DNA of 64,000 nt from Bacillota bacterium (lineage in GTDB: Bacteria > Bacillota > Clostridia > Oscillospirales > Oscillospiraceae). This document shows, one piece after another, positions 12,432 to 43,692 of this stretch. The position numbers and the translations under genes were made by a program. Positions within the stretch are counted from its first letter, which is position 1. Every line of letters starts with the position of its first letter. Where the stretch lies: NCBI GenBank assembly GCA_030529825.1, contig JAUMWD010000001.1, positions 100,935 through 164,934 of the forward strand, in the 5' to 3' direction. The notes below the pieces were generated by a model, which did not search any database, was not told where the DNA came from, and saw nothing but the letters and a program-made list of their open reading frames with translations.

Positions 12432-12435
12432 ATCA

Positions 12436-12480
12436 AAACACACTCAATTGGGCGCCGCCCCTATGTTGAGTGTGTTTTTT
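12436..12480 (+). terminator. Rho-independent terminator
   Basis: AACACACTCAA pairs with TTGAGTGTGTT, enclosing a loop with its own GGGC/GCCC mini-stem, followed by a T-run. Confidence 0.85.
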
Positions 12481-12594: not shown

Positions 12595-15417
12595 ATGAAG
12601 AAAACTTTTAAATCACTGCTTTGCATTACCCTTGCCGTGATTTTCATGGTTTCCACCGTGAGCATTGCCTTTGCGGATAAGGACGCAAAGACCGATGCCT
12701 CCGGGGCAAGCGTGAAGGTAGGCGTTGCAAAGGTTGACATCACTGGTCCCATCACCGGCATCAGCACAGGCTATAACTCTCTGGGTGACCTCATGGAGGG
12801 CCTGCTCACAAGACTTTATGCCCGTGCCTTTGTTGTGGATGACGGAAGCGCACCCATGGTCTATGTTTCCGCGGAGCTTGTGCATATGACCGAAAGCATC
12901 AAGCCCGGTGTCATCAAGGCACTTAAGGCAGACGGCTATTCCGTTTTCTCCGAGGAGAATGTAATGCTTGCCGCAACCCATTGCCATTCCTCCACCTCCA
13001 ATACCTCATGGTACGCTCTGTACGACCTTATAAACGGTGTTCCCGGCTATGATGACGAGAGCTACAGGATGATCGTAAAGGGTATTACCGAGGCGATTGA
13101 AACCGCATACGATACCCGTGTTGAGGGCTCTGTTTCCCTGGTCTGCGGTGAAACTGACATCAGCGCCTCCAACCGTTCCGCCGACGCCTATCTCACCAAT
13201 ATAAATGTGGGCGACTACGGCTATGAGGTAAATGAAGACGGCAGCTTCTCCTATGAAACCGGTCTGAAGGCGGCGCAGAATGCCTATAACCACGAAATGG
13301 CGGGCATCGTGTTCACCGACAGCAAGGGCAACGATATAGGCTTCCTGAACTTCTTCGGCTCCCACGGCACCTCCAATCCCATTGACAATACCTATGTTGC
13401 CTCCGACCATAAGGGCTACGCGGCTCTGAAGGTGGAGGAGGAAATGGGCGACGGCTTCGTTGCCGCCTTTGCCCAGGCAGACAGCGGCGACACAAGCCCC
13501 AATGCCGTACAGGAGGCAGATTACCATGATGCCTTCCTCCGTCCTGCAGACATGGATGCAGCTTTAGATATGATTGAAAATCAGATTGTACAGGGCAGTC
13601 AGGAGGCGGAGGCCGCCATGAATCTGATTAATAACGCAGGCAGAACTCCCCTCACGGGCAAGTTTGACTTTAATTACACCGCTGTTGATTTTTCAAACAT
13701 CACCGTTGACCTTGAATATGTAGGCGACTACCATATGCCCTACGATGACCTTTCCGCAGGCTATGTGACCACGAGCGAGCCCTGCATCGGCGCAGGCATC
13801 ATTGCCGGTGATGAGGAGGGCGCACCTGTTGACAATGCCCTTGAGGGCGCTGTAAAGCATAACTTCGTGTGGAACGAGGAAACAGGAAGCTATGACAGAA
13901 TTGCCTGCGACTTCAAGATGATTGACCTCTACGGACTTCAGTATCTCTTTGAGCCGCTGTGGCCCACCGCCATGAAGATTCTCCAGTCCGACGGCTATGA
14001 CGAGGCACAGATGGAAAAGGTGGTCTGCCTTGCCGTAGGTGACCTCATGCAGGCAGTACAGCCTCTGCAGATTATGCGCTTTGGTCAGGCGGCAATTGTG
14101 GGCGTTCCCTTTGAGCTCACCTATGAGCAGGCAAACCGTACCCGTGCGGTGCTTGAAAAAACTCTTGCCGCCGACGGCGTTACAAAGGTCATAATCTCCA
14201 CCCATTCCAATGCCTACAGCCAGTATGTGACCACCCGCGAGGAGTTTGCCGCCCAGCATTATGAGGGCGCAACCTGCCTCTTCGGACCTTGGTCCGGCGC
14301 GGCAATGACACAGGAGCTTGACAAGCTGGCTCAAGGCATAGTATCCGGCGAAAAGGCTCCCAAGGGCGATGAAATGAAGCAGAGCACACCTCTTGCTCTT
14401 TTGTATACTGTCTATGCCATTGCCGATCCCGTTGCGGATTTAGGCGAATACGGCACGGTGCTCTCGGATGTTGAAAAGGATACATATACAAGAGGCGAGT
14501 GGGTACGCGCCGGCTTCACGGGCGTAAATCCCAGACATATTACCGACTTGAGCCTTGAGGACAGCGCACTTGTGGACGGCTACAGCTACATGGAGGTTCA
14601 GAAGCTCTTAAATGATGAGTGGGTAACGGTGCTCACGGACACGGACCCCTATACCACCTTCAGATGCGTCAAGGACAGCGTTCTTGACACGAGCTATAAT
14701 GCCACCGTAGGCTGGCTCCTCAAGGGCGATAACTGGACTCCCGGCACCTACCGCCTTGTGTATAACGGCGTTGCGAAGAATGAGCTTAAAGACCGCATCA
14801 GCGGCGATGACTATACCGCCTTCACCGCTGCAAGCTCCCCCTTCAATGTGGAGGATCCCGAATATAAGCCCGTACAGGATAATCCCTTTGCCGATGTGAA
14901 GGACGGCTCGGTCTACTATGATGCGGTGCTGTGGGCGTATTACCATGAGCCGCAGCAGATAACCGCAGGTGTGGATGACACTCATTTTGCCCCCGATGCC
15001 GACTGCACCCGCGGACAGGTCGTGACCTTCCTGTGGCGTGCCGAGGGTTGTCCCGAGCCTCAGGGCGAATGCCCCTTCACGGATGTTGCGGAGTCAAGTC
15101 CCTACTATAAGGCGGTAATCTGGGCCTATGAAAACGGCATCACCACCGGTGTGACGGAAACCGCCTTTGAGCCCAATACTCCCGTAACCCGCGCCCAGTT
15201 CGTAACCTTCCTCTGGCGCTACGAGAATAAGCCCGACACCACGGGCAGCATTGCAGGCTTTGCCGATGCCTCCTCCATTGCAGCACCCTATCAGCAGGCG
15301 GTTGCATGGGCGGTGGAAAAGGGCATAACCACGGGCTATAACGACGGCACCTTCCGTCCCAATGCCACCTGCACCCGCTGGGCGGTTGTGCTCTTCATGT
15401 ACCGCGATATGGCGTAA
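12595..15417 (+). CDS. SLH-anchored neutral ceramidase family protein
   Basis: A 940-residue exported protein. A signal peptide ends after SIAFA (residue 27). The N-terminal ~430 residues belong to the neutral/alkaline non-lysosomal ceramidase family, zinc amidases that cut ceramide into sphingosine and fatty acid. Key family motifs are present: ATHCHSS with His129 and His131, FFGSHGTSN with His257, SDHKGYA, and the hexapeptide GDTSPN (298-303), whose Ser301 matches the nucleophile of the family motif GDVSPN. A linker domain follows, then three SLH domains from about residue 763. The protein would sit on the cell surface. Ceramide is the family substrate; N-acyl amino lipids are possible alternatives. 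It has its own promoter and terminator. Confidence 0.85.
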   Translation: MKKTFKSLLCITLAVIFMVSTVSIAFADKDAKTDASGASVKVGVAKVDITGPITGISTGYNSLGDLMEGLLTRLYARAFVVDDGSAPMVYVSAELVHMTESIKPGVIKALKADGYSVFSEENVMLAATHCHSSTSNTSWYALYDLINGVPGYDDESYRMIVKGITEAIETAYDTRVEGSVSLVCGETDISASNRSADAYLTNINVGDYGYEVNEDGSFSYETGLKAAQNAYNHEMAGIVFTDSKGNDIGFLNFFGSHGTSNPIDNTYVASDHKGYAALKVEEEMGDGFVAAFAQADSGDTSPNAVQEADYHDAFLRPADMDAALDMIENQIVQGSQEAEAAMNLINNAGRTPLTGKFDFNYTAVDFSNITVDLEYVGDYHMPYDDLSAGYVTTSEPCIGAGIIAGDEEGAPVDNALEGAVKHNFVWNEETGSYDRIACDFKMIDLYGLQYLFEPLWPTAMKILQSDGYDEAQMEKVVCLAVGDLMQAVQPLQIMRFGQAAIVGVPFELTYEQANRTRAVLEKTLAADGVTKVIISTHSNAYSQYVTTREEFAAQHYEGATCLFGPWSGAAMTQELDKLAQGIVSGEKAPKGDEMKQSTPLALLYTVYAIADPVADLGEYGTVLSDVEKDTYTRGEWVRAGFTGVNPRHITDLSLEDSALVDGYSYMEVQKLLNDEWVTVLTDTDPYTTFRCVKDSVLDTSYNATVGWLLKGDNWTPGTYRLVYNGVAKNELKDRISGDDYTAFTAASSPFNVEDPEYKPVQDNPFADVKDGSVYYDAVLWAYYHEPQQITAGVDDTHFAPDADCTRGQVVTFLWRAEGCPEPQGECPFTDVAESSPYYKAVIWAYENGITTGVTETAFEPNTPVTRAQFVTFLWRYENKPDTTGSIAGFADASSIAAPYQQAVAWAVEKGITTGYNDGTFRPNATCTRWAVVLFMYRDMA

Positions 15418-15425: not shown

Positions 15426-15460
15426 AAAAAAACAAGCATCCGATGGATGCTTGTTTTTTT
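15426..15460. terminator. Bidirectional terminator
   Basis: AACAAGCATCC-GAT-GGATGCTTGTT with A-run before and T-run after. It ends the ceramidase gene and the convergent membrane protein gene at 15475. Confidence 0.9.
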
Positions 15461-17078: not shown

Positions 17079-17170
17079 GCGTATGTTATCTAAATATTAT
17101 CGCGGTTTCCTATTGAATTAATCGGAAAAATTTGATAATCTGTTCCCATATTTTCACTCGGAGTGTAGCT

Positions 17171-17869
17171 ATGAGCAACAGAATCGGTAAGACGATAGCG
17201 GAGAAAAAGCGAAGAGCGCGGCTGAAGAATCACGAATTCAGTATTATCGCGAATAATTGCATGGGCGGAGTTGTGTCCCATTCTTTAGGGGAGCAGTTTC
17301 GTTCGCCCACGGTTAATGTGCTCATGTCGGAGTATCAGTTCATCGCCTTCTGCAAATATTTAAAGGAATATTCAAAATGCCCCGTTGATGAGCTGACGAG
17401 AGAAGAGTGGGAGCAGTTCAGAGATGTGACTCATCCCGTGGGAGTCCTGCGCGGGTATAAGATTCCCAACGGACATCTGCCCGATATAAAGCTCCCCGAT
17501 ATCATGCTGCTTTTTGTCCACTATAAGACCTTCACGGAGGCCAAGCAGAAGTGGGAGGCGCGATTTAAACGCGTGAATTACGATGACCTCTACATTGTCA
17601 TGGACTGCGCCATGAACGGCAGCGATGAGATCCTCGATGAGTTTAACGCTCTGCCCCAGGAGCACAAGGTAGCCTTTACTCATAAGCAGGATGCAGAGCG
17701 CTGGCCCTCCAATTATCAGTTCAGCTTTTATACGGAGGAAAAGTTCAGCAGCGGCTGTGTGTACAATCCCGTGAGCAAGGGCCTCGTGGAATATAAATGG
17801 ATGGATGAATTTGACTTCATCACCTGGCTCAATGAGGGCAAAATGCAGAAAAATTCCGATTTTCAGTAG
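17171..17869 (+). CDS. DUF1919 family protein, probably polysaccharide-related
   Basis: A 232-residue protein resembling the DUF1919 family, found in exopolysaccharide and capsule loci. Typical features are the N-terminal phrase FSIIANNCMGGVVSHSLG, the central VGVLRGYKIP and DIMLLFVHYKTFTEAKQKWE, then RFKRVNYDDLYIVMD. No activity has been shown that I know of; a transferase acting on glycans is the usual guess. The start at 17171 is chosen because GGAG lies eight bases upstream; an in-frame TTG at 17132 has no ribosome site. No other polysaccharide genes adjoin it. Confidence 0.75.
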   Translation: MSNRIGKTIAEKKRRARLKNHEFSIIANNCMGGVVSHSLGEQFRSPTVNVLMSEYQFIAFCKYLKEYSKCPVDELTREEWEQFRDVTHPVGVLRGYKIPNGHLPDIKLPDIMLLFVHYKTFTEAKQKWEARFKRVNYDDLYIVMDCAMNGSDEILDEFNALPQEHKVAFTHKQDAERWPSNYQFSFYTEEKFSSGCVYNPVSKGLVEYKWMDEFDFITWLNEGKMQKNSDFQ

Positions 17870-17900: not shown

Positions 17901-18980
17901 TTATCCGAGATAGATTTTGTAGAATTCCTCAAGATTTGCCGCGGGCATGGAGAATATGGCATGATTGTCCTCGTTACAGGTCTCAAGATACCAGCCCCAG
18001 ATTTTTTCGATGTTCGTCACATCGGCACCTGCCAGCTTGCCTGTGTCAAGAATAATCTTGAGACCGAAGGGGAAGTCCGCGGTGAAGTAGCGGGAGCTGA
18101 AATCGGGAATCCACACACCGGGCTCCGTTTCCTTCATGGGGGAGGTGAGTCCCTTGAAGGCGGGAATACCGCTTATCTTTGCGGTCATCTTCTCCACGGT
18201 GTCGCTTTCGTAATGCACCTTGAGGGACTTGACCATGCGAAGGTCAAGTCGGTCAAGTCTGCGGCAGATTTCCTGAAGCTCTGCGTCGCAGTCAATCATG
18301 AGCTTGCTTGCCTCGTCCGTCCATTCCTCGTAGAAAAGGATGTTGTGGTCAAAGCTGTCGCCCTTGCGGTAATCCTTGAACATGGAATAAATTCTCGTGG
18401 TATGGAGAATGGGGTTTGAGGGGGTAAGGGTGACTACGAGATAGTTGGGGAGAGCCACACAGGGCAGGTCAAGCATACCGCCCACGATTTCGGAATAGTG
18501 CTGTGTCTTGTCGGCGGGAATTGCCGCGAGCTGGAGGTCGGGCTTTCTGCCTAACATATATACGGCGTGACCGTATTCCTCAAGTCTTGCAATGCTGTGA
18601 ACTCTCTGCAGACCGCAGAGGGTGCAGCCCTTTTCAATGTGGGGAGCAAAGCAGAACTCCGCGCCGCCGCTGCCGGGAACGCACATGATCATCTGCCCCG
18701 CCTTTACAAGGGGAAGAAGCTCCTTCGCGATTTTGGGGAACATGAAGGAGGGGAGCACAACCCAAATCTGCTCCGCACCCTCAACGGCGTCGGCCAAATC
18801 GGAGGTGACACGGAAATTATCCGTCTCAAACCACACGGTGTCGTCGAGCTTAAGTACCTTCAGAGTGTTTGACCATTTTTCGGGCTTTGATGTATGAATG
18901 ACGGTTTCGTAACCCTTGTGTGCAAACTCCGCGGCCAGCAGAGTGCCGATGTTACCGCCGCCTATAACGCAAATTTTCAT
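17901..18980 (-). CDS. NAD(P)-dependent opine dehydrogenase family protein
   Basis: A 359-residue oxidoreductase of the octopine/nopaline dehydrogenase family, which joins an amino acid to an alpha-keto acid by reductive amination. The N-terminus MKICVIGGGNIGTLLAAEFA is the Rossmann dinucleotide site; the catalytic histidine is likely in NPILHTTRIYSM, the expected start of the C-terminal helical domain. Substrates cannot be inferred. No staphylopine-type partner genes (CntL or CntM neighbours, metal transporter) are nearby. AAAGGA precedes the ATG. It lies 50 bases downstream of the esterase gene and might share its transcript. Confidence 0.82.
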   Translation of the reverse strand: MKICVIGGGNIGTLLAAEFAHKGYETVIHTSKPEKWSNTLKVLKLDDTVWFETDNFRVTSDLADAVEGAEQIWVVLPSFMFPKIAKELLPLVKAGQMIMCVPGSGGAEFCFAPHIEKGCTLCGLQRVHSIARLEEYGHAVYMLGRKPDLQLAAIPADKTQHYSEIVGGMLDLPCVALPNYLVVTLTPSNPILHTTRIYSMFKDYRKGDSFDHNILFYEEWTDEASKLMIDCDAELQEICRRLDRLDLRMVKSLKVHYESDTVEKMTAKISGIPAFKGLTSPMKETEPGVWIPDFSSRYFTADFPFGLKIILDTGKLAGADVTNIEKIWGWYLETCNEDNHAIFSMPAANLEEFYKIYLG

Positions 18981-30829: not shown

Positions 30830-32779
30830 ATGAAGAATAACACTCTGGGCGGTTACAAGACGGTTGACGCCTATGTAAGCGCAAAGCTGAAGCATTTCAA
30901 CTCACTGGAGCATAGCTTTGCCTCCATGTTTGAGGTGATGTTTTCGGAAAGAGAAAATATTATTTACGAAAAAAGCTGCGGCTATAAAATCGAATATGCA
31001 ACCTATGGTGAGGCCTGTGACCGGGCTGTCTCCTGCTCAAACCGTATCCGCAAGCTGGCAGGCGGACTCCATCACGATTCCGTAATCGGCCTGTACATGG
31101 AAAATGACATCAACTGGATTGTGGCCTTCTGGGCAATTCTCCGAAGCGGCTTCAGACCGCTCCTGCTGAATGCGAGACTGGGCGACGAAATCCTCTCCGC
31201 GGCCATGAAAAGCTGTGACACAAGGCTTGTAATCTCCGACGGCAAGGTGTTTGAGGGTGTCAGCACAGTGGTCTTTGACAAGTTAATGGGCGGTGTGGAG
31301 CCTGAAGAGTGCTGTGAGGACTTCGGCACAGAGGTGCTTATTATGTCCTCGGGAACAACCTCGAGTCCCAAAATATGCGCCTATACTCCGGAGGAATTCT
31401 ACTGCCTGATTAATGACAGCTATGATATTATCGCAAAGTGCGACCGCATACAAAAGTTCTATGAGGGCCAGATAAAGCTGCTGACCTTCCTGCCCTTTTA
31501 CCATATTTTCGGCCTTGTGGCCGTATATGTATGGTTTGCGTTTTTCGCAAGGACCTTTGTGCATCTCGGCGACTATTCCGCCCAGACGATTCTGAACACC
31601 ATTCGCAGGCATAAGGTAACTCATATCTTTGCCGTGCCGATGTTCTGGAACGAGGTATATAAGCAGGCCATAAAGACAATCAGGGACCGGGGCGAGGAAA
31701 CCTACGAGCGCTTCTGCAAGGGCATGGATATTGCGCGGCGCATCGGCGATGTACCCTTGATCGGCCAGCGCTTCATTCGCTCCGCCTTCAGTGAGGTGCG
31801 TGAAAACCTTTTCGGGGAAAGCATCAGCTTCATGATTACCGGCGGAAGCGAAATAAAGCCCGAGGTGCTGTCTTTCTTTAATCTCATCGGCTACCACCTT
31901 GCAAACGGCTACGGCATGACGGAAATCGGCATAACCTCCGTGGAGCTGAGCCCTAAACGGGAAATCCTCAATAAGGGGTTCGTGGGCAAGCCCCTGACCT
32001 CCGTTGAGTATTCAATCTCGGAAGAGGGAAGCCTGCTTGTCCGCGGCGGCTCCGTTGCGAAATATATTTTGGAGGACGGCAAAAGGCTTGAGCTCTCCGA
32101 TTGGTACGATACCCGCGACCTTGCCGAATGTGTTGACGGGCATTACAGAATTCTCGGACGCATGGACGATCTGGTAATCGCGGAAAACGGCGAAAACCTC
32201 AATCCCTGCTTGGTGGAGCCCTTGCTGACAGAGAATGACTCCTATCAACTCTGCCTTGTGGGTACCGTGAAAGACGGGGAAATCCTGCCCACGCTCCTTG
32301 TCTATGCCGGAAGCTATGTGACGGCTGAAAGGTACGAGACGGTGAGAGGAGAAATCCTTCGTCGCCTGCAGAAAAACTCCCTGTCGTCAATGATAAGAAA
32401 AATCCTGTTTGTGAAGAAACCGCTTGTTGACGCGGGAGATATAAAAATCAACAGAACTCGTCTCACGGAGCAGTATGCCTCGGGCAGCCTTGAAATTCTT
32501 GACCCGGAGAAAATCGCCGCCGCCGAGTGCGCTGAAAACGAGCTTGCGGATTATGTCAGAGCGCTGTTTGCCGCCGCGCTTGAGAAGCCTGCGGAGGAAA
32601 TCGGCATGGATGCGGATTTCTTCCTGGACGAGGGCGGCACGAGCCTCGACTATTTCGCCATGATTTCAAAAATTCAGGAAGACTATGCCGTGAGCTTTCC
32701 TGCAACACAGGAAAAAACCATGACAACAGTACGGGAGCTTTACAGCTTCATCGAGGAAACCCTAAAAAATGTGGATTAA
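30830..32779 (+). CDS. Acyl-AMP ligase fused to a C-terminal acyl carrier protein
   Basis: A 649-residue member of the ANL adenylating superfamily. The N-terminal ~550 residues have the phosphate loop MSSGTTSSPK, the GYGMTEIGITS motif, DTRDLAECVDGHYRILGRMDD and the catalytic Lys region DIKINRTRL. Residues about 570-645 are an acyl-carrier domain, with the phosphopantetheine-attachment Ser605 in DEGGTSLD. The likely reaction is ATP-dependent activation of a fatty acid and loading onto its own carrier domain. It overlaps the next gene by 11 bases. The ribosome site is weak (AGGA at 12 bases). The chain-length preference is unknown. Confidence 0.88.
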   Translation: MKNNTLGGYKTVDAYVSAKLKHFNSLEHSFASMFEVMFSERENIIYEKSCGYKIEYATYGEACDRAVSCSNRIRKLAGGLHHDSVIGLYMENDINWIVAFWAILRSGFRPLLLNARLGDEILSAAMKSCDTRLVISDGKVFEGVSTVVFDKLMGGVEPEECCEDFGTEVLIMSSGTTSSPKICAYTPEEFYCLINDSYDIIAKCDRIQKFYEGQIKLLTFLPFYHIFGLVAVYVWFAFFARTFVHLGDYSAQTILNTIRRHKVTHIFAVPMFWNEVYKQAIKTIRDRGEETYERFCKGMDIARRIGDVPLIGQRFIRSAFSEVRENLFGESISFMITGGSEIKPEVLSFFNLIGYHLANGYGMTEIGITSVELSPKREILNKGFVGKPLTSVEYSISEEGSLLVRGGSVAKYILEDGKRLELSDWYDTRDLAECVDGHYRILGRMDDLVIAENGENLNPCLVEPLLTENDSYQLCLVGTVKDGEILPTLLVYAGSYVTAERYETVRGEILRRLQKNSLSSMIRKILFVKKPLVDAGDIKINRTRLTEQYASGSLEILDPEKIAAAECAENELADYVRALFAAALEKPAEEIGMDADFFLDEGGTSLDYFAMISKIQEDYAVSFPATQEKTMTTVRELYSFIEETLKNVD

Positions 32780-33410
32780 GTTCTTTAACCTCTTTGCCAA
32801 AATCACCGGATGGCTTCTGCAGTGGTTTTGCTTTCGCACAAAAGTGTATTACGAAGATAAATCGGTGCAGGGACGGCATATTAAGGGCCGCGCCATTATA
32901 GTTTCAAACCACACCTCGGTGTATGACTACGCGGTGATGATGTTTGTGTTCATAACGCGAACGCTGCGTTACCAGATGGCGGAAATCCTGTTTGAGAAAA
33001 AGGGACTGAGAACTCTGCTGCGCTGGCTTGGCGGCATCTATGTGAACAGGAATAATCACGATTTGAGCTTTGTGAGAAAGTCCGTGGATATTCTTGATGC
33101 CGGCGGCGTTGTGGGCGTATTCCCCGAGGGAAGACTGCCACGCAAGGGAGAGGAAAGTCCGCTGCCCTTTGCCTCCAGCGTGACATATATTGCCCTGCAG
33201 TCAGGTGCGCCGATAATACCCGTTTACACAAACGGCTCCTATTTCTGCAAAAAGCGGGCAAGAGTCATTATCGGCAAGCCCATAGCTGCGGACGAGTTAG
33301 CTGACTCAAGCTTAACGGAAAAGGAAAATCTCCAACAGATAACCGAAAAGATACGGGAACGGATCAAGGAATTGGGGAAGGAATTAGATGAAAAAACCAA
33401 AAAGAGCTAA
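32769..33410 (+). CDS. PlsC-type 1-acyl-glycerol-3-phosphate acyltransferase, copy 1
   Basis: A 213-residue membrane-associated acyltransferase. The catalytic HX4D is His48-Asp53 (VSNHTSVYDYAVM), and the phosphate-binding motif is VFPEGRLPRKGE. It transfers an acyl chain from acyl-ACP, acyl-CoA or acyl-phosphate to a lysophospholipid or a related acceptor. A hydrophobic N-terminus (residues 1-22) anchors it. It overlaps both neighbours (11 and 23 bases). A second, divergent copy follows at once, so this pair probably has distinct acceptors rather than housekeeping roles. Confidence 0.9.
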   Translation: MWIKFFNLFAKITGWLLQWFCFRTKVYYEDKSVQGRHIKGRAIIVSNHTSVYDYAVMMFVFITRTLRYQMAEILFEKKGLRTLLRWLGGIYVNRNNHDLSFVRKSVDILDAGGVVGVFPEGRLPRKGEESPLPFASSVTYIALQSGAPIIPVYTNGSYFCKKRARVIIGKPIAADELADSSLTEKENLQQITEKIRERIKELGKELDEKTKKS

Positions 33411-34035
33411 ACTGTTTTCCCTGTCGTATCTCTTTTATGATATTACCAAGCTGATTGCGGCGCTGCCGGGATTGCTTGCCTTCAGACCGAAATATATATA
33501 CCAGAATAAAGCGGCGAGAAAACGCATACGCGGCGGAGCCGTACTCATAGGGAATCACACGGGCTTTTTCGACCCGGTGTATATGCAGTTCGGTGTTTGG
33601 TACAGGCGTCACCACTTCCTTTGCGCCAAGGAATTCTTTGATTCAAAGGCCAGATTTTTCTTTAAGAACTTCATGTGCATTCCCATAGACAGAGATAACT
33701 TCGGAATGGATACCTTTAGAGAAATCACAGAGCATCTGAAGCAGGGTGAGCTTGTGAGTATGTTCCCCGAGGGCAAAATAGAAAAGGAGCTGAACTCCTT
33801 TAAGTCGGGAATGGTTCTCATGGCGCTGCAGAGCGGTGCTCCCATAGTACCGATATATATAAAACCCAGAAAAACCGTATGGCACCGACTGGTGATGGCT
33901 ATCGGCGAGCCTGTGGATGTTGTTGAAATATGCGGAGGCAGCAGACCCTCATTTTCCAAGATAGAGAATGTAGCCGAGCTTCTGCATAATATTGAGGTGC
34001 AGTTAAAGGAAATGTGTGAGAAAGGGGATAAATAA
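33388..34035 (+). CDS. PlsC-type acyltransferase, copy 2
   Basis: A 215-residue acyltransferase of the same family as the preceding gene but clearly diverged. HX4D is His57-Asp62 (IGNHTGFFDPVY); the second motif is MFPEGKIEKELNSFKSG. It lacks the long N-terminal hydrophobic stretch of copy 1 and instead begins with a lysine-rich segment. The stop overlaps the next start by one base (TAATG). Its place between two acyl-AMP ligases suggests it uses acyl-ACP made by the cluster. Confidence 0.9.
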   Translation: MKKPKRAKLFSLSYLFYDITKLIAALPGLLAFRPKYIYQNKAARKRIRGGAVLIGNHTGFFDPVYMQFGVWYRRHHFLCAKEFFDSKARFFFKNFMCIPIDRDNFGMDTFREITEHLKQGELVSMFPEGKIEKELNSFKSGMVLMALQSGAPIVPIYIKPRKTVWHRLVMAIGEPVDVVEICGGSRPSFSKIENVAELLHNIEVQLKEMCEKGDK

Positions 34036-35549
34036 TGAAAACAATGCCCAGAGAAGTTTTTTCCAAGTACACAGAGCCGGAGACCTTTGAAAGAATCAAG
34101 GAGTATCCCTCCGTAAGCGCCATGTGGGAAAACTGCCTGCGTGAATTCGCTGATGTAACGGCAATCTGCGACAACGGCAGGGAATATACCTTTGCCGAGA
34201 CGGAAAAGGCCGCCGCGGCCTTCCGAACCGTGCTGTGCGAGGCTCATAAGGATGAATCCAAGCGTATCGGCATTTATTCCGCAAATTCCATTGACTTTGT
34301 AAAGGCCTTTCTTGCCATAACGACTTTAGGCTATACCGCAGTAATCCTTCCCGCCCAGCTTGATGCGGGAACGGTGTTTGGCTGCTGCATGAAATATAAT
34401 ATCGGAACTCTGGTGTATCAGCCCGAGCTTAAGCAGAATACCGCTGTTGCGGAGGAACGCTGTCCGGGCCTTGCCCTTGTGCCGGCGGATGCCCTTGCGG
34501 AGGAGCTTACGCCGCTTCGCCCCTGCGAAGCGGATACCCCCTGCGTGGTAATGTTTACCGGGGGAACCACGGGCAGAAGCAAGGGTGCACTGCTCTCCAA
34601 CGGCGCGGTGATGCAGGGCGTTGTGAATGGCTGCTACGGCTATCACGATGTGTTCAACCAGCGCTATATGCTGGTGCTGCCTCTTTCCCATGTCTTCGGC
34701 CTCATAAGAAATCTGCTGACATCCCTCTATACGGGCAGCACGATTTTCATCTGCCGCAATAATAAGGATGTTTTCCGTGACATTGCCGTTTTCCGCCCCA
34801 CCATATGGGTAGTGGTGCCTGCACTGGCGGAGATGGCACTGACGCTGTCTAAAAAATTCGGAAGAAATATGCTGGGCGCGGATATGAAGGTCATTATCTG
34901 CGGCGCCGCTGCCGTGTCCCCCTATCTTATTGAGGAATACCGCGAGCTCGGCATTACTCTGCTCCCGGGCTACGGCCTTACGGAGAGCGCAAATCTTGTC
35001 TCCGGCAACCCCGAAAGCCTTGAGAAGCCCGACTCCGTGGGTATCATGTACCCCAATCAGGAATATCGCGTTGAAAACGGCGAGCTGTGGCTTCGGGGCA
35101 GCAATATGCTGGAGTGCTACATCGGCGAGGACGAGGAGGCCTATACCGACGGATGGTTCCGCACCGGTGACCTTGTGCGCTTTGACGAGGAGGGCTTCAT
35201 GTATATCACGGGCCGCATTAAGGAGATAATTGTACTCTCCAACGGCGAAAATGTGTCTCCCGCAGAGGTGGAGGCGCAGTTTAACGCTCTGCCCTTTGTG
35301 CAGGACTCCCAGGTGTTTGAGGATGTAAATGAAAGCGGTGCTCATATCCTCGCCCTTGAGGTCGTGCCGCGCATGACGGAGCTGGGAAAGCTTCAGCTTC
35401 CCGACGCCAATGCCTATATGATGCAGGAGCTTGAGAGGGTAAATGCACAGCTTCCGGGCTTTGAGCGTGTGAACAGAATAGTCATCAGGGATACTGACTT
35501 TGCCAGAACTCCCAGCATGAAGATTGTGAGATATAAAAAATGCAACTGA
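34035..35549 (+). CDS. Acyl-AMP ligase / acyl-ACP synthetase, stand-alone
   Basis: A 504-residue ANL-family adenylating enzyme. Motifs: phosphate loop MFTGGTTGRSKGALLSN, GYGLTESANLVSG, FRTGDLVRFDEEGFMYITGR, and the C-terminal catalytic lysine in RTPSMKIVRYKK. Unlike the other ligase of the cluster it has no carrier domain, but a free ACP gene follows immediately with a ten-base overlap, so it probably loads that ACP with a fatty or other carboxylic acid. The substrate is not predictable by eye. Confidence 0.88.
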   Translation: MKTMPREVFSKYTEPETFERIKEYPSVSAMWENCLREFADVTAICDNGREYTFAETEKAAAAFRTVLCEAHKDESKRIGIYSANSIDFVKAFLAITTLGYTAVILPAQLDAGTVFGCCMKYNIGTLVYQPELKQNTAVAEERCPGLALVPADALAEELTPLRPCEADTPCVVMFTGGTTGRSKGALLSNGAVMQGVVNGCYGYHDVFNQRYMLVLPLSHVFGLIRNLLTSLYTGSTIFICRNNKDVFRDIAVFRPTIWVVVPALAEMALTLSKKFGRNMLGADMKVIICGAAAVSPYLIEEYRELGITLLPGYGLTESANLVSGNPESLEKPDSVGIMYPNQEYRVENGELWLRGSNMLECYIGEDEEAYTDGWFRTGDLVRFDEEGFMYITGRIKEIIVLSNGENVSPAEVEAQFNALPFVQDSQVFEDVNESGAHILALEVVPRMTELGKLQLPDANAYMMQELERVNAQLPGFERVNRIVIRDTDFARTPSMKIVRYKKCN

Positions 35550-35794
35550 ACAGAACAGAAATAATGGAGCGCCTCAGGGATATACTCCTCATGGCCGATG
35601 ACAGAAACACGGAGCTCATTGAGAGCTGCACAGAGGATTTTAAGCTGGTAACCGATTTGGGCCTGTCCTCCGTAGCTCTGCTTTATGTGGTAATCGCCAT
35701 TGAAGAGACCTTCGGCATAAGATTTGACAATGTGGGCATCGCGGATTTTGAAACCGTAAAGGATGTCGTGGACTTCATAGAGGAAAAGCTCTGA
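35540..35794 (+). CDS. Acyl carrier protein
   Basis: An 84-residue acidic carrier protein. The phosphopantetheine site is in DLGLSSVALL, with Ser44 at the position of the DSL serine; Ser replaces the usual Asp before it. Helix III and IV patterns (IEETFGIRF and TVKDVVDFIEEKL) are standard. It is separate from the fatty-acid synthase ACP, which would be elsewhere, and is sandwiched between an acyl-ACP synthetase and a phosphopantetheinyl transferase that likely activates it. TGATG overlap with the next gene. Confidence 0.9.
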   Translation: MQLNRTEIMERLRDILLMADDRNTELIESCTEDFKLVTDLGLSSVALLYVVIAIEETFGIRFDNVGIADFETVKDVVDFIEEKL

Positions 35795-36837
35795 TGAAAT
35801 GGTGGCCGGAAATCTGTGCTCCCGGGGACATGGTGCGTGTAAGCATCGGCTCGGTGAAGCATTACGGCATATTTGTAAGTGAAAATGAAATAATCCAGTT
35901 CGGACCGCCGCCCGTTTCTCTGAAGATAATGGAGAGCAGGGACATATGCGTCTGCACTGCCACGGCAGAGGAGTTTTCCTGCGGCAACATCATTGAGAGA
36001 GCCGTGCTGGACAAGAGCGAAAGCCGCAAGCGGATTCCCCCCGAAAAAACGGTGGAAATCGCAAGGTCGCGTCTGGGCGAAAAGGGCTACAGCCTTCTGC
36101 ACAACAACTGTGAGCATTTTGCCTATGAGTGCGTGTTCGGTGAAAAGCGAAGCTCTCAGGAGGAAGAGGCTCTTGCCCGATGGAAAAACAGACCGATTTT
36201 AGATGTGTATATTGCGCCTGTGCCGGAGGAGATAAATATTACTCCCGTGGCCTGCGCGGCGCGGGAGGCGGAGATACGCGGTACGAATAACGAAGAGCTC
36301 CGCGCTGCGAGATTCTTCGACTGGCAGGTGCTGCTGTATGCAGCCAACCGTTCCTTCGGCCTTCGGGAGGAGGAAATCAGCTTCAAAAAAGCCTCAAACG
36401 GAAAATGGAGCTGTGATAAATTCTTCTTCTCCCTTTCTCATACAAAGGGTGCGGTTGCCGTTGCCGTGTCAAACAGCAAGGTGGGCGTGGATATAGAGAA
36501 TGTGACGGAGTTTGAGAGAAAACCCGCATCCCGGGGAAAGCTCCGGAGAAATATGTTCAGAAGAATATGCACCGAGAGGGAAGCCCGAAGCATGGAGGAT
36601 AAGGATTTTCTCAAGCTTTGGCTCAAAAAAGAGAGCATATTCAAGTGCTTCGGGGACAGTGCGTCTCCGCTGAAGGTGGAAACAGGAGACCGTCCAGCGG
36701 AGGTCTTCGTATTGAAAAAATGTCCTGATTATATGTTTTGCGTTTGCGGCGAAAAATTACGCAGCGCAAGGTTCTACCTGTATGAAAACAATGCCGCCTG
36801 CGCGGTGAACTCCGAAATTGTGAAAAGCGAGTCGTAG
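35794..36837 (+). CDS. LRAT-like acyltransferase fused to a 4'-phosphopantetheinyl transferase
   Basis: A 347-residue two-domain protein. Residues 1-~125 match the lecithin:retinol acyltransferase (LRAT) family of permuted papain-like enzymes: GDMVRVSIGSVKHYGIFV with His23, then HNNCEHFAYECV with catalytic Cys106. Residues ~170-345 are a Sfp/AcpT-type 4'-phosphopantetheinyl transferase: FFSLSHTKGAVAVAVS, VGVDIENV (Asp233, Glu235) and FLKLWLKKESIFKCFG (Trp276, Lys279, Glu280). The second half would activate the two ACP domains of the cluster. The first half probably moves an acyl chain through a Cys thioester. I do not know this fusion from other systems. Confidence 0.88.
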   Translation: MKWWPEICAPGDMVRVSIGSVKHYGIFVSENEIIQFGPPPVSLKIMESRDICVCTATAEEFSCGNIIERAVLDKSESRKRIPPEKTVEIARSRLGEKGYSLLHNNCEHFAYECVFGEKRSSQEEEALARWKNRPILDVYIAPVPEEINITPVACAAREAEIRGTNNEELRAARFFDWQVLLYAANRSFGLREEEISFKKASNGKWSCDKFFFSLSHTKGAVAVAVSNSKVGVDIENVTEFERKPASRGKLRRNMFRRICTEREARSMEDKDFLKLWLKKESIFKCFGDSASPLKVETGDRPAEVFVLKKCPDYMFCVCGEKLRSARFYLYENNAACAVNSEIVKSES

Positions 36838-36839
36838 TG

Positions 36840-37784
36840 ATGACATTTGTGAATTGTCTGCTTGCAGCAGCGGGCATATATGTGCTGCTTGTTCTGGCGC
36901 CCAGTGCGGTGCTGTACAAAGTGGTATTTCGACGAAAAAACGGAATAATGTTTACCGACAGGGATTTGAGCAAGACCTATCTCAGCGGCTGCGCCGATAA
37001 AATGTGTGAGGATATAGAGCACTTTCGGAAGCTGGAATATGAGCCTGTGTCCGTGACGGTGCCTGACGGCACGGAGCTGAAGGGCCATTATTACTCCCTG
37101 GGCGGAGACAAGCTGGCGATTTGTTTTCACGGCTACGGCTCAACAACCCTGAATTGCTTTGCCACCATGGGACGGTTTCTCCGGAGCCGTGGCTACGACC
37201 TGCTCATGCCTGTTGAACGCGGCCACGGTGAAAGCGGCGGTAAATGCTCGACTCTGGGTGTGCTGGAGCAATACGATGTGAAAAAATGGGTGGAATGGGC
37301 CTGCGAAAGAGACGGAATCGAAAAAATCGTCGTTGCGGGCGTGTCCATGGGTTGCGTAGCTGCAGCCTACGCCTCCGATGCCATCTGCGGCGGGAAAGTA
37401 AAAGCCCTGATTCTTGACTGCGGCTATACATCACCCTATAATCAGGTGATTCAGGACTGCAAAAAGAGACATCTTCCGTACAGACTTATGATGCCTGTTA
37501 TAAGTACCTGTGCAAAAATATTTGACGGTCTTGAGCTTAAGGAGCCCGTTTGGACGCACCTTGAGCGCACCACAATTCCCGCCCTGTTCATCCACGGCGG
37601 AGGCGATGAGACCGTTCCCCTGAAGGAAACGAAAATTAACTATGAGCATTGCGCCTCACCGAAACGGCTGTATATTGCCCCGGAGGCAAATCATGCAAAC
37701 GCCTTCCTCACCGGAGGAAAGGAAGCAGAGAACGCAATGAAAGAGTTTCTTGATTGTTATGTAGAAAGAAGGTATGAAGTATGA
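36840..37784 (+). CDS. Membrane-anchored alpha/beta hydrolase, serine type
   Basis: About 314 residues. One N-terminal membrane helix (~3-28) is followed by an alpha/beta hydrolase domain: oxyanion region CFHGYGSTTLN, nucleophile elbow VSMGC, acid region HGGGDETVPL and the catalytic His in EANHANAF. The family includes lysophospholipases and esterases. An ATG at 36840 is preferred over the GTG at 36837, which overlaps the preceding stop; neither has a strong ribosome site, so coupling to the upstream gene is likely. The stop overlaps the DegV start (ATGA). Confidence 0.85.
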   Translation: MTFVNCLLAAAGIYVLLVLAPSAVLYKVVFRRKNGIMFTDRDLSKTYLSGCADKMCEDIEHFRKLEYEPVSVTVPDGTELKGHYYSLGGDKLAICFHGYGSTTLNCFATMGRFLRSRGYDLLMPVERGHGESGGKCSTLGVLEQYDVKKWVEWACERDGIEKIVVAGVSMGCVAAAYASDAICGGKVKALILDCGYTSPYNQVIQDCKKRHLPYRLMMPVISTCAKIFDGLELKEPVWTHLERTTIPALFIHGGGDETVPLKETKINYEHCASPKRLYIAPEANHANAFLTGGKEAENAMKEFLDCYVERRYEV

Positions 37785-38722
37785 GCAAATTCGCGATTAT
37801 GGCCGATGCCGCCTGTGACCTGTCGGAGGAATTGCGTAAACAGTATGATGTAGAGGTCATAGCTGCTCACCTAACTCTCCCTGATGGCAGAGAGATTTCG
37901 GCAATGCCGGAGTGGGAGCATTTTACCCGTGAGGAGTTTTACTCGGCTCTCAAAAGAAATCCCGAAGGCTTTACCACAGCACCTCCCAACATTTCCGAAT
38001 TTGCCGATGCCTTTGAGCGCCATGTGTCCCAAGGGCATGAGCTTCTGTGCATAACACTCTCCGAGGGTATAAGCGGAACCTACAATTTCGCTCTTGCGGC
38101 GAAAAAGAATGTGCTTGAAAAATATCCCCATGCAAGGATTGAGGTAGTGGATTCCAGACGCTTCGGTCCTGCCATCGGACTTATGGTTGTCCGTGCCGCC
38201 CTGATGAGAGACCAGGGGAAGAGCATTGACGAGGTAACGGCATATCTTGAGGAGAATAAAAACTGCTTCCGCCAGGCAGGCTGGCTGGACGACCTTTCCT
38301 TTGTGGCAAAGAAGGGAAGGATTACCCATTCAAAGGCATTCCTCGGCGCTCTTGCTGGAGTCAAGCCCATCGGCGAGTTTGACTATAACGGCCTTACCAC
38401 GGTAATCGGCAAGGTCAAGGGCGCAAAGACGGCCTATTCCGTACTTCTTAAGTATATTGAAAAGACCATTGTTGATCCCTCCGAGCAGATAATCTTCATC
38501 GCCCAGACAAACCGTCTTGAGCAGGCCAAGGCCTATAAGGCCATGATTGAGGAAAAATTCAAGCCAAAGGCGGTGCTGATAAATGATGTATACTGCGTCT
38601 GCGGCGTAAATGTGGGCCCGGGCCTGATGGCTGCATATTATGTGGGAAAGCCCATATCCTCCGATCTTGAGGAAGAAAGAAGAATAATTGACACAGCTTT
38701 GAGCGAGGGAACAGAAAGATGA
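37781..38722 (+). CDS. fakB: DegV-family fatty-acid-binding protein, FakB-like
   Basis: A 313-residue DegV protein. In Firmicutes, DegV proteins of this size (FakB) hold a free fatty acid while FakA phosphorylates it to acyl-phosphate. The fold pattern is complete: MADAACDLSEEL at the N-terminus, LSEGISGTYNFA, VVDSRRFGPAIGL and the C-terminal pocket. The fatty-acid carboxylate loop reads FTTAPPN (63-70) where most FakB proteins have TSQPS, so the usual Ser is Thr or Ala and the ligand may differ. The FakA gene is in the same cluster. ATGA overlaps on both sides. Confidence 0.85.
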   Translation: MSKFAIMADAACDLSEELRKQYDVEVIAAHLTLPDGREISAMPEWEHFTREEFYSALKRNPEGFTTAPPNISEFADAFERHVSQGHELLCITLSEGISGTYNFALAAKKNVLEKYPHARIEVVDSRRFGPAIGLMVVRAALMRDQGKSIDEVTAYLEENKNCFRQAGWLDDLSFVAKKGRITHSKAFLGALAGVKPIGEFDYNGLTTVIGKVKGAKTAYSVLLKYIEKTIVDPSEQIIFIAQTNRLEQAKAYKAMIEEKFKPKAVLINDVYCVCGVNVGPGLMAAYYVGKPISSDLEEERRIIDTALSEGTER

Positions 38723-40053
38723 AAAAGATAAAGGGAAAAGGCAAGGTAATGCTGTATGCCGTCTCCGGCATGGGCGTTAATATGCTCAACCTCATGGTGG
38801 GCTCATATTTGTGCAGCGCACTGCTCATTGGCGGCTTCGGCAAGGATGTAATTCCCTTCCAGACCTACGCCCAGAGAGATTTGATAATTCCCGCTGTGTG
38901 GGCAATCTTCGCCCTTGCGGCAAAGATACTGGACGGCATTATAGATATTCCCATGGCGTCGCTGACGGACAGACTTAAAACACGCTGGGGCAGAAGACGC
39001 CCCTCCATACTCATCGGTCTTGTGATGACCGTGGCGGCATATTTGCTGTTCCTCGTCATTCCCGATGCCGGAGGCGCAAGCATGCTCAATACCGTTTACT
39101 ACGGAATTGTACTCTGCGTTTTCTATTGCTCTTATACGCTGACAATGGTAACCTACTATGCTACATATACCGAAATCGTGGAAACAACAGAGGAGAGAAA
39201 CCTTCTTTCCAATGTAAAATCCGTGTGTGACATAGTGTACTTTATCCTGGGCTATGTAGTGGTCAGAATGCTGCTCAACGGCATTAATGTCCGCACTGTG
39301 GCACTCATGGTTCTGCCCATGTCTCTCACAATGCTGATTCCCATCTTTATGATTAAGGAAAAATCCAGCCTTGCAGATGCTGATGAGGCTGTGGAAACCG
39401 TGAATCTTGTCAAGTCGCTGAGACTGACCTTTAAGAATAAGCCCTTTATCATTTGGATGCTTGTTTACTCCTTCATGACCTTTGGCGTTCAGCTCTTCCT
39501 GGGCGGCATCAACGAGTATTTCTCCTATGTGGGAATGAATATGATTTTTGTCATGATGTCGGCCTTTGCCCCCGTGCCCTTTACGCTGATTATCTATAAC
39601 AGGATCATCAAAAAGCACGGCTTCGGAGCCGCCTTCCGTTATGTTTTGGTGGTGTATTCCGTGTCCATGGCTCTCATGGGCCTTGTGGGCTTCATGGAAC
39701 AGGGAATCGCAAAAACGATTTTGTCCATTGTGTCCGGTCTCGTGGGCTCCTTCGCAATCGGCGCTCTGTTCGCGGTGGCCTATGCCGTACCCTCCCAGCT
39801 TGCCGCCGATGAGGAAAAGAAAACCGGAATTTCCAACTCCGCAATGTATTTTGCGGTGCAGGGCCTGTTCGCCGGTATAGCAACCGGCATCGGCACGGGC
39901 ATCGTGCTGACGGCCCTCAAGGGCAGCGAATCAAATCCCACCGGCGCGATTAGATATATGACTCTTATCTGCGCCGCGGCCTGCGTTGCTGCTCTTGTCT
40001 TTACAAAACTGCTTCCCGAATCTATAATTGATATGGGTAAAAAAGAAAGCTGA
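38719..40053 (+). CDS. MelB/MFSD2-type MFS transporter, candidate lysolipid or fatty-acid carrier
   Basis: A 444-residue, twelve-helix transporter of the GPH:cation symporter (MFS_2) family, with the loop motif TDRLKTRWGRRRPSILIG after helix 2. Members carry sugars (MelB), but the same family contains vertebrate MFSD2A, which moves lysophosphatidylcholine. Here it is translationally coupled to FakB (ATGA overlap) and 14 bases from FakA, with no sugar gene near. An acylated or lipid substrate is the simplest reading of the context, comparable to LplT beside Aas in E. coli. Confidence 0.85.
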   Translation: MKKIKGKGKVMLYAVSGMGVNMLNLMVGSYLCSALLIGGFGKDVIPFQTYAQRDLIIPAVWAIFALAAKILDGIIDIPMASLTDRLKTRWGRRRPSILIGLVMTVAAYLLFLVIPDAGGASMLNTVYYGIVLCVFYCSYTLTMVTYYATYTEIVETTEERNLLSNVKSVCDIVYFILGYVVVRMLLNGINVRTVALMVLPMSLTMLIPIFMIKEKSSLADADEAVETVNLVKSLRLTFKNKPFIIWMLVYSFMTFGVQLFLGGINEYFSYVGMNMIFVMMSAFAPVPFTLIIYNRIIKKHGFGAAFRYVLVVYSVSMALMGLVGFMEQGIAKTILSIVSGLVGSFAIGALFAVAYAVPSQLAADEEKKTGISNSAMYFAVQGLFAGIATGIGTGIVLTALKGSESNPTGAIRYMTLICAAACVAALVFTKLLPESIIDMGKKES

Positions 40054-40067
40054 CTCCGGAGAAATAG

Positions 40068-41720
40068 ATGAACACAAGGAAAATCAACGGGCTTCATATG
40101 GAGAAAATGCTCCGTAACGGCCTGGCAAATCTGTGTCTGTATGAAAAAGAACTGAATAGCCTGAATGTGTTTCCGGTTGCTGACGGAGATACGGGCACCA
40201 ATATGCGAATCACCCTTGAAAGCAGCCTGCGTGCGGCAAAGAGCACGGCCTCCATGGGTGCCTATCTGCGTTCCCTCACCGATGCCATGCTTTATGGCGC
40301 CCGGGGGAATTCCGGCGTTATTCTGTCCCAGATTTTCAGAGGAATATTTGCGGCACTGTCACGGTGCGGCGGCGTGAATGTCATTGAGATGAGAAATGCG
40401 CTCATCAGCGGCTATAAAACCGCATACTCTGCGGTGGTGCGCCCTGTGGAGGGAACAATTCTCACCGTATCAAGAGAGGGCATCGAGTATATAAAGAGTC
40501 AGATTGACCGCAATACGACCTTTGAAGAGCTGCTGAATCTGTATATCGTTGAAATGCGCCGAAGCCTTGCCCGTACTCCGGAAATACTACCCCAGCTGAA
40601 GGAAGCCGATGTGGTCGACAGCGGAGCCATGGGCTATATTGTCATTGTTGAGGGTATGCTCCGATATCTCAACGGCGATGTGCTTACTGATTCCGTTCCC
40701 GAGGAAGCCCATCGGACCAATACGCAGTTTACCGCCGATGTATCTCTTTTCAATGAAAATACCGTGTTTGCCAGCGGCTATTGCGTGGAGTTCATTCTCC
40801 AGCTCATGTGCGGCAAGCAGTATTCCCGTAACTTCAATATTAACCGCTTTATTAATGACCTTCAGGACTACGGCGGCTCAATAGTTGCCGTGCAGAACGG
40901 AAAGCGAGTTAAGGTGCATATCCATACCTTCAAGCCTGCAAGAGTTCTGTCTCTGGCACAGGAATTCGGCGAATTTGTTACCTGCAAGGTGGAGAATATG
41001 CAGCTTCAGCATAATTCTCTCATTAAGGAAAAGCCTGCACCGGCCCGTAAGCGCACGGAATTCGCCGTTATTTCCGTGGCGGACAGCGAGAGAATGCGCA
41101 TAGTGCTCCACGATCTGGGCAGCGCATATGTAATAATGGGCGGAGCAAAAATGAGCGTCTCCGTTCAGGACTTTGTGGAAGCCATAAAAACCGTTAATGC
41201 GGATAATGTGGTGATTTTGCCCAATAACGGAAATCTCGTAGGCGCGGCCCGGCAGGCAAAGGAGCTGTATAAGGACAGCAGTGTAACGGTTCTGGATACC
41301 CATACAATACCCCAGGGCTACAGCGCTCTTGCCATGGATATTGTGGACGAAAAGGATTGCAATGTCCGCATAAGACAGATGAAAATGGGCATGAACGGAG
41401 TTGAAACCCTTTCCGTTACGACTGCCGGCAAGGATTATCACAGCGAGGATGTGAGCTGCTCTGCGGGAATGCAGATCGCGGTAAGCGACGGAAAGCTCCT
41501 GTGCGCGGGAGATGAAGCGGAAACCGTATTTTGTGACGGACTGAAGCTGATTCCCGATGTTGACGAAATGGAAACCTGCATAGTTTTCCGGGGTGAAGGC
41601 AAGGGCGAGGAGCTGGAGGAAAAGCTTGAAAAGCGCATAGCCGGGCTGTTCCCCATGCTTGAGGTCAGCTTTGTTGACGGCGGCTCGACGCTTTATAAAT
41701 GGACAGCGGCCATATCCTGA
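40068..41720 (+). CDS. fakA: Fatty-acid kinase catalytic subunit FakA (DAK2/DegV-type)
   Basis: A 550-residue kinase matching FakA in length and order. The N-terminal DAK2 ATP-binding domain has NVFPVADGDTGTNM (Asp39, Asp41 for Mg2+) and GARGNSGVILSQIFRG. The middle domain has GYCVEFILQL and VKVHIHT, matching the Cys and His-x-His of FakA. The C-terminal domain binds FakB. It phosphorylates FakB-bound fatty acid to acyl-phosphate for PlsX/PlsY or direct use. Fourteen bases after the transporter gene, so it is in the same operon. A housekeeping FakA is often elsewhere; whether this is the only copy is unknown. Confidence 0.92.
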   Translation: MNTRKINGLHMEKMLRNGLANLCLYEKELNSLNVFPVADGDTGTNMRITLESSLRAAKSTASMGAYLRSLTDAMLYGARGNSGVILSQIFRGIFAALSRCGGVNVIEMRNALISGYKTAYSAVVRPVEGTILTVSREGIEYIKSQIDRNTTFEELLNLYIVEMRRSLARTPEILPQLKEADVVDSGAMGYIVIVEGMLRYLNGDVLTDSVPEEAHRTNTQFTADVSLFNENTVFASGYCVEFILQLMCGKQYSRNFNINRFINDLQDYGGSIVAVQNGKRVKVHIHTFKPARVLSLAQEFGEFVTCKVENMQLQHNSLIKEKPAPARKRTEFAVISVADSERMRIVLHDLGSAYVIMGGAKMSVSVQDFVEAIKTVNADNVVILPNNGNLVGAARQAKELYKDSSVTVLDTHTIPQGYSALAMDIVDEKDCNVRIRQMKMGMNGVETLSVTTAGKDYHSEDVSCSAGMQIAVSDGKLLCAGDEAETVFCDGLKLIPDVDEMETCIVFRGEGKGEELEEKLEKRIAGLFPMLEVSFVDGGSTLYKWTAAIS

Positions 41721-41735
41721 CAGCGAGGTGATTTT

Positions 41736-42686
41736 ATGAGTACGGAAATGCTTGTGATCCTTATTGTGCTGGCGGCGGTTCTGCTTTTGTTTGTCGGCCC
41801 TGTGGCTGTGCTGTCATATATTCTTTACAGAATCCTGCTGGTGCGTACGGGACCCGAAAAATGGGGCCGCGAGTGCAGCCTGCCCGAGGATGAAGAATAT
41901 AAACGGATGTTTGATATAGGCATCCGGTGGTTTGAAAATAACAAAGACACAAAGCATGATGTGTCAATTGTCAGTGACGGATATAGGCTGGCGGGCGAAT
42001 ACTTTGATTTCGGCTATGACAAGGCGGTAATAGTAATACCGGGACGAATGGAATCCTGTATTTACTCCTACTATTTTGCCGAGCCCTATGTAAAAGCAGG
42101 CTATAATGTCCTTGCCATTGATAACAGAGCCCATGGCCTGTCGGAGGGACGCCGCTGCAGCCTGGGATATAAGGAATACCGGGATATAATCAACTGGAGC
42201 AAGTACCTGCATGACGGGGAGAATGTTAACACCGTTGTGCTCCACGGAATTTGCATCGGCGCATCCACCGCGCTGTTTGCGCTTACGGCGGATGACTGTC
42301 CGGATTACATCAAGGGCATGGTGGCAGAGGGAATGTATACCACCTTTGCCGAATCCTTCAAAAACCATATGATTGTGGATAAGCACCCGCTGTTCCCCAT
42401 ATTTTATGCTGCGATGCTGCAGGTACGCCTGCTGTCGGGGGCAAATGTGGTGTCTGACGGCCCCATAAAGCGTATAGACCGGCTGACAAAGCCCATCCTT
42501 TTCCTGCACAGTAAGGAGGACTGCTTCTCCCTGCCGGATAAGGCGCAGCTGCTTTACGAAAAATGCACCGCCCCAAAGACCATGGAGTGGTTCGAGGTGG
42601 GCTCCCATTCAAGAATCCGTATAAACAATACGGAAAAATATGATAAGGCGATTTTGAAATTTGTCGAAGAAACCAAAAATTTATAA
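41736..42686 (+). CDS. Membrane-anchored alpha/beta hydrolase with Cys at the nucleophile position
   Basis: 316 residues: an N-terminal membrane helix (~5-28), then an alpha/beta hydrolase fold related to the hydrolase at 36840. The nucleophile elbow is HGICIGAS, with Cys in place of Ser, as in dienelactone hydrolases. Acid and histidine regions are HSKEDCFSLPD and GSHSRIR. A Cys nucleophile could favour acyl transfer over hydrolysis. GAGGTG precedes the ATG at eight bases. Last gene of the continuous run; only 15 bases from fakA. Confidence 0.85.
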   Translation: MSTEMLVILIVLAAVLLLFVGPVAVLSYILYRILLVRTGPEKWGRECSLPEDEEYKRMFDIGIRWFENNKDTKHDVSIVSDGYRLAGEYFDFGYDKAVIVIPGRMESCIYSYYFAEPYVKAGYNVLAIDNRAHGLSEGRRCSLGYKEYRDIINWSKYLHDGENVNTVVLHGICIGASTALFALTADDCPDYIKGMVAEGMYTTFAESFKNHMIVDKHPLFPIFYAAMLQVRLLSGANVVSDGPIKRIDRLTKPILFLHSKEDCFSLPDKAQLLYEKCTAPKTMEWFEVGSHSRIRINNTEKYDKAILKFVEETKNL

Positions 42687-42689
42687 TAT
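42661..42689 (+). promoter_or_regulatory. Possible promoter of the zinc-ribbon gene pair
   Basis: TTGTCG (42661-42666), 17 bp, TAATAT (42684-42689), followed by further TATAAT-like repeats to 42703. The -35 lies inside the end of the hydrolase gene. Confidence 0.4.
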
Positions 42690-42723
42690 AATATATAATA
42701 TAAAGTTTTAAGGAGGTAACACT

Positions 42724-43134: not shown

Positions 43135-43180
43135 TCTGTAATCAAATCAATAATTAATCAAAAATTCAGGAGGTAACATT

Positions 43181-43636: not shown

Positions 43637-43664
43637 TCAGCTGAGCATCAAGAAAACAAAAATA

Positions 43665-43692
43665 AGGGAAGCGTTTCCGCTTCCCTGTTTTT
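43665..43692 (+). terminator. Rho-independent terminator
   Basis: AGGGAAGCG-TTTC-CGCTTCCCT, then a T-run. It ends the gene run that begins at 30511, apart from the last hydrolase. Confidence 0.9.

Follow-up and report, generated by a model that had tools for sequence, protein, structure and literature searches.

The gene described here, which lies in a 64,000-nucleotide stretch of DNA (hereafter called the window) from an Oscillospiraceae-type bacterium, probably encodes a zinc amidase of the neutral ceramidase family that would be exported by the Sec pathway, anchored to the cell wall and able to split ceramide at the cell surface. The components of this explanation that can be read from the sequence, namely the family, the active-site residues, the architecture, the single-gene layout and the presence of CsaB, are established by the present analysis. 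The ceramidase family and the SLH anchor are both already well known; the new elements are their combination, its rarity and the apparently repeated changes of anchor.

The coordinates of the gene and of its features are collected in Table 1. According to the open reading frame and to Pfam, the 940-residue protein comprises, in this order, a probable signal peptide, the N-terminal and C-terminal ceramidase domains and three SLH domains. Its N-terminus, judged by eye from the hydropathy, exhibits a basic start, then a hydrophobic core at about residues 5-25 and then AFA-D, and is probably a Sec signal peptide. Both ceramidase domains score above their Pfam cut-offs (292.7 versus 32.1 bits for PF04734 and 79.2 versus 30.5 bits for PF17048). 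On the same protein, SLH (PF00395) reaches 100.9 bits in the Pfam search, with two SLH stretches being significant individually, and in the genome search all three SLH domains exceed the Pfam cut-off, in the same frame as the ceramidase. An earlier, sequence-only reading of this DNA had placed a signal peptide, the ceramidase motifs and three SLH domains in one protein. The ceramidase and SLH parts are confirmed here by the Pfam and genome-wide SLH searches, and a signal peptide is probable from the hydropathy as judged by eye.

Table 1. Features of the ceramidase gene and its flanks. Positions refer to the window; residues are numbered along the encoded protein. PaCD, Pseudomonas aeruginosa ceramidase.
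Feature	Position	Strand	Evidence
Whole gene, 940 aa, ATG start	12595..15417	+	ORF, Pfam, genome-wide SLH search
Probable Sec signal peptide, residues 1-27, with a guessed cleavage site following AFA	12595..12675	+	Hydropathy, by eye
Catalytic domain Ceramidase_alk PF04734, residues 41-572	12715..14310	+	Pfam, 292.7 bits, E 6.6e-87
Ceramidse_alk_C PF17048, residues 577-752	14323..14850	+	Pfam, 79.2 bits
His129-Cys-His131: predicted zinc ligand (PaCD His97) and catalytic His (PaCD His99, human His196)	12979..12987	+	Alignment
Arg194 (PaCD Arg160, human Arg257)	13174..13176	+	Alignment
His257, predicted zinc ligand (PaCD His204)	13363..13365	+	Alignment
Asp299-Thr-Ser301-Pro-Asn303 of the GDxSPN motif (human Ser354)	13489..13503	+	Alignment
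Glu507, predicted zinc ligand (PaCD Glu411)	14113..14115	+	Alignment
Tyr544, predicted zinc ligand (PaCD Tyr448, human Tyr579)	14224..14226	+	Alignment
Tyr556 (PaCD Tyr460, human Tyr591)	14260..14262	+	Alignment
SLH domain 1 (weakest of the three)	14884..15021	+	Genome SLH search, E 2.5e-4
SLH domain 2	15073..15201	+	Pfam and genome SLH search, E 9.6e-14
SLH domain 3	15259..15378	+	Pfam and genome SLH search, E 5.9e-12
Terminator-like hairpin with U tract, separating the ceramidase gene from the PfkB-family gene	12435..12478	+	-22.6 kcal/mol, z -5.5
Terminator-like hairpin directly after the ceramidase stop	15426..15460	+	-19.8 kcal/mol, z -7.0

With regard to the active site, phmmer matches only two PDB structures at E <= 0.001, namely 2zws (E 1.7e-55), the P. 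aeruginosa ceramidase CerN/PaCD, and 4wgk (E 4.8e-47), human ASAH2, and chance is excluded as the source of these sequence matches. The zinc ligands of PaCD, which we take to be His97, His204, Glu411 and Tyr448, agree with the letters found at those positions of the chain. When the alignment to 2zws is followed residue by residue, all eight catalytic and zinc positions of PaCD are identical in the window protein, and the same eight positions are invariant in all six aligned clade members (the window protein and five relatives). The serine corresponding to Ser301 belongs to a GNLSPN motif in PaCD, which is equivalent to GDTSPN in the window protein. In PMC6952831, His196, Arg257, Tyr579, Tyr591 and Ser354 are given as critical residues of human neutral ceramidase, and these were taken as the equivalents of the window positions through the phmmer alignments. 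The HCH motif (His129 and His131), His257 and the GDTSPN motif (Ser301) are all located where the sequence-only reading had placed them. That reading had named the absence of the zinc-binding Glu and Tyr of the family as a finding that would refute its ceramidase claim; both are there, as Glu507 and Tyr544, and the claim is not refuted on this point.

Judged by these similarities, the protein is a divergent member of the neutral/alkaline ceramidase family with a complete predicted active site. It scores 223.9 bits against the neutral ceramidase equivalog NF041649 of NCBIfam, the cut-off of which is 1200 bits, and it is therefore filed as a divergent family member and not as an NF041649 equivalog. 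Its identity is about 30% to the P. aeruginosa CerN record, over 64% of the window protein, and 28% to a Kitasatospora ceramidase, over 75%, and its PF04734 score is about half that of the latter (292.7 versus 591.4 bits). The proposal that ceramide is cleaved at the surface consequently stands in part: the family, the complete set of zinc and catalytic residues and the anchoring module in a CsaB-positive genome argue for it, whereas ceramide is a predicted substrate rather than an assigned one because the protein diverges from the characterised enzymes to this extent. A ceramidase-type amidase on the wall is the best reading of the protein. The AlphaFold model, built from six sequences, has a mean pLDDT of 56.5, so the shape of the substrate pocket is not argued from it. 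Ceramidases take the first four places among the PDB structure matches of the model, and the following ten include SLH domain structures. The model superposes badly on the ceramidases (rmsd about 23; TM by target 0.45-0.47), and these model-based matches back the family more through sequence than through the predicted fold.

With regard to the source of the substrate, the genome exhibits no match to the sphingomyelinase model TIGR03395, in a search that is weak as it had no positive control, nor to the GH30 glucosylceramidase-type family PF02055, which was searched with positive controls; ceramide would thus have to come from other organisms. It may be of host or dietary origin, as previously suggested. 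No sphingolipid gene was recognised beside the ceramidase gene in the Pfam annotation of the window.

The genome from which the window is taken (G000; 1.93 Mb in 34 contigs, 96.6% complete) encodes a CsaB-type pyruvyl transferase, with a score of 239 bits versus a cut-off of 213.1. It contains 84 SLH matches, which, by impression and without comparison, is a large surface repertoire for a genome of this size. The SLH module of the window protein is 72%, 62%, 59%, 54%, and 54% identical to those of five other proteins of the same genome, and about 50% identical to the SLH modules of two related ceramidases, L022 and L005. The SLH triplet, presumed to be an anchor, would hold the ceramidase on the cell wall.

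The ceramidase gene looks like a single-gene unit. Terminator-like hairpins on both sides of the gene led us to reject an operon with its neighbours, which are, according to Pfam, a PfkB-family kinase, an SLH/Flg_new protein and an unknown membrane protein. By eye, no gene is common to the flanks of the five related loci L021-L025, except for a PfkB-like stretch in the congener L021. The consensus scan returned no plus-strand promoter before the ceramidase start; a TATAAT noticed by eye upstream has a poor -35 partner, and no promoter is claimed on this basis. Elsewhere in the window, an octopine/nopaline-type dehydrogenase (PF02317) is found at 17901-18980, beside a DUF1919 protein at 17132-17869.

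The sequence-only reading had also suggested that a nearby acyl cluster could use the fatty acid released by the ceramidase. Its description of the cluster was fair, since the domain content at 30830-44845 agrees with it: this region encodes AMP-binding proteins (one with a carrier domain), a PP-binding protein, two acyltransferases, an LRAT-ACPS protein, a DegV protein, an MFS transporter, a FakA-like protein and three alpha/beta hydrolases. The region has the appearance of a separate lipid or acyl-carrier system. The LRAT-ACPS protein (35794-36837) consists of an LRAT acyltransferase domain joined to a 4'-phosphopantetheinyl transferase domain. We searched for the LRAT-ACPS protein and for FakA-like proteins in 11 genomes, comprising the window's own, five congeners (one with a ceramidase) and five further ceramidase carriers. 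A full-length match to the LRAT-ACPS protein is present in the window's own genome only (1 of 11), and thus in none of the six other ceramidase carriers; weak partial matches of 22-25 bits, covering the second half alone, are observed in G001, G003, G352, and G1145, and six of the 11 genomes give no match at all. FakA-like proteins are found in all 11 genomes, with or without a ceramidase, although in G1143 by a 19-bit fragment only, and the window's own genome encodes a second one on contig C28. A specific association between the ceramidase and the acyl cluster was rejected on these grounds, and the suggested link was not borne out. A generic use of the released fatty acid is possible.

Close relatives of the protein are rare. 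Within the genus, two of six genomes exhibit a PF04734 match. In the family sample (400 genomes), 15 genomes match, 11 of them above the cut-off, and long proteins scoring more than 200 bits are restricted to four (G000, G003, G134, and G352), the remaining matches being mostly weakly scoring frames of about 400-480 aa. In the phylum sample (398 genomes), 30 match and 27 pass the cut-off, and only two exceed 200 bits, namely the window's own genome and G558, the protein of which has neither the C-terminal domain nor SLH. In the order sample (394 genomes), for which the protein was used as the query, 31 genomes match, with a close match in the window's own genome only. The contig scan yielded six loci, one of which (L026) matches through SLH alone; the contig of L026, which bears an SLH protein, is titled Pseudomonas sp. 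ISL-84 and looks like a mislabelled or contaminated assembly. By sequence, there are seven distinct close members: the window protein, L021 (the G003 protein), L022, L023 (the G134 protein), L005 (from G352), L024, and L025. Over the full length, the aligned clade members (n = 6) share 48-78% identity with the window protein. The relatives with which the window protein groups are titled Oscillospiraceae or Clostridia, L023 being from rumen and L025 from roe-deer duodenum according to the record titles. This rare clade of clostridial ceramidases is new here.

The anchors of these proteins differ. Five of the seven distinct members exhibit SLH domains in Pfam. L024 (5905-8805) has no SLH and carries a long acidic linker, followed by a hydrophobic C-terminal tail ending in KKK, which is possibly a different kind of anchor, and L025 stops after the catalytic part, with no anchor. 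The SLH tree was built from the SLH modules of the five ceramidases and from 18 others, all of the latter taken from the window's genome. Of the 21 segments of that genome, those with a BLAST hit spanning 150 columns or more were kept, and L093, L094, and L101 were left out. A single clade for the five ceramidase modules was rejected (AU p 2.3e-5), and a single clade for the four modules other than that of L023 was rejected more weakly (p 0.026); this tree contains several long branches. In the catalytic tree, which has no starred branch, the SLH-bearing catalytic domains do not form one clade (AU p 0.028), and L025, which has no anchor, is the partner of L023 (support 84/95). A comparison of the window protein with L022 over aligned positions gives an identity of 74% for the catalytic part and 50% for the C-terminal part. 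Repeated swapping or gain of anchors is the probable explanation. Alternatively, the SLH domains could have been homogenised within genomes, as gene conversion could mimic exchange; between the two, we favour swapping, with moderate confidence.

Based on these observations, the mechanism that we consider probable is as follows. The protein would leave the cell through its Sec signal peptide, and its SLH triplet would anchor it to the wall, presumably through a CsaB-dependent pyruvylated wall polysaccharide. A zinc ion would be held by His129, His257, Glu507, and Tyr544, in a site likely surrounded by His131, Arg194, Ser301, and Tyr556. The enzyme would then cleave the amide bond of ceramide reaching the surface, releasing a sphingoid base and a free fatty acid; the latter may enter the cell by the ordinary route for exogenous fatty acids and serve as a nutrient. 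The same fold and chemistry could serve another natural substrate, with host or dietary ceramide being secondary. Such a substrate could be another N-acyl lipid, for example a bacterial dihydroceramide or a different sphingolipid made by neighbouring Bacteroidota, or a lipid of the N-acyl amino-acid or N-acyl-ethanolamine type. The divergence from characterised ceramidases is consistent with this, as is a genome with no sphingomyelinase or GH30 match for making ceramide from host or plant lipids, and Bacteroides species are described in PMC10865984 as major producers of sphingolipids in the gut. Nevertheless, the catalytic set is complete in the protein, the C-terminal domain found in true ceramidases is retained as well, and ceramide made by other organisms would suffice, so that we regard a different N-acyl substrate as rather unlikely.

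A role as a weapon or a shield, in which sphingosine is freed or ceramide removed in order to affect neighbours or the host surface, appears highly improbable. It would fit a lone gene with no recognised uptake or breakdown genes adjoining it, and free sphingosine is harmful to many Gram-positive bacteria. However, sphingosine would harm the producer too; wall anchoring keeps the product near its maker, and no immunity gene was recognised among the Pfam-annotated neighbours.

It is conceivable, and we propose it tentatively, that a rare lineage of gut Clostridia possesses its own surface ceramidase, which was placed on the surface several times by anchor exchange under selection, with at least two types of SLH module, perhaps a tail in the membrane, and one form that lacks an anchor. 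In the gut, ceramide and sphingosine act both as nutrients and as signals, and, to our knowledge, the enzyme known to cleave ceramide there is that of the host. If the proposal is true, the clostridial protein would parallel, in bacteria, the ceramidase of the intestinal brush border, competing with the host for ceramide and releasing sphingoid bases in the lumen. With a wall-held ceramidase in a commensal, sphingosine would have a microbial source that can be named, and single genes would suffice to test who cleaves ceramide in the lumen. Anchor exchange would also offer, on a small scale, a natural experiment on the reasons for keeping an exoenzyme at the surface.

The surface-anchored form of ceramidase appears undescribed. 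No ceramidase was found together with "S-layer homology" or "SLH domain" in the literature searched, from which subscription journals are mostly absent and which leaves absence from print unproved. A broader literature search returned no wall-anchored ceramidase in titles and the beginnings of abstracts, and in the accessible portion of a review of bacterial sphingolipids (PMC10626005) the word ceramidase occurs in the reference list only.

Among known systems, the ceramidase that P. aeruginosa secretes produces fatty acid and sphingosine, according to PMC5150637. This enzyme, CerN/PaCD (2zws, 2zxc), is secreted, as the window protein would be, and it has the catalytic and C-terminal regions in the same order and the eight identical residues; in contrast, the overall identity is about 30%, and its PDB chain of 646 residues has no anchor, unlike the window protein with its SLH triplet. 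Human ASAH2 (4wgk) belongs to the same family by sequence and shares the active-site residues. It is held at the membrane through an N-terminal segment, whereas the anchor of the window protein would be its C-terminal wall-binding domains. The host neutral ceramidase works in the intestine, as stated in PMC8417471. The actinobacterial ceramidase of Kitasatospora indigofera (L090, WP_331722580.1) has both Pfam domains, at 28% identity, but no SLH, and its gene adjoins a sphingomyelin phosphodiesterase gene, unlike that of the window. With the SLH-anchored enzymes and S-layer proteins of Bacillota, the window protein shares its SLH triplet, which is of the same type as that of at least five other proteins of its own genome (54-72% identity).
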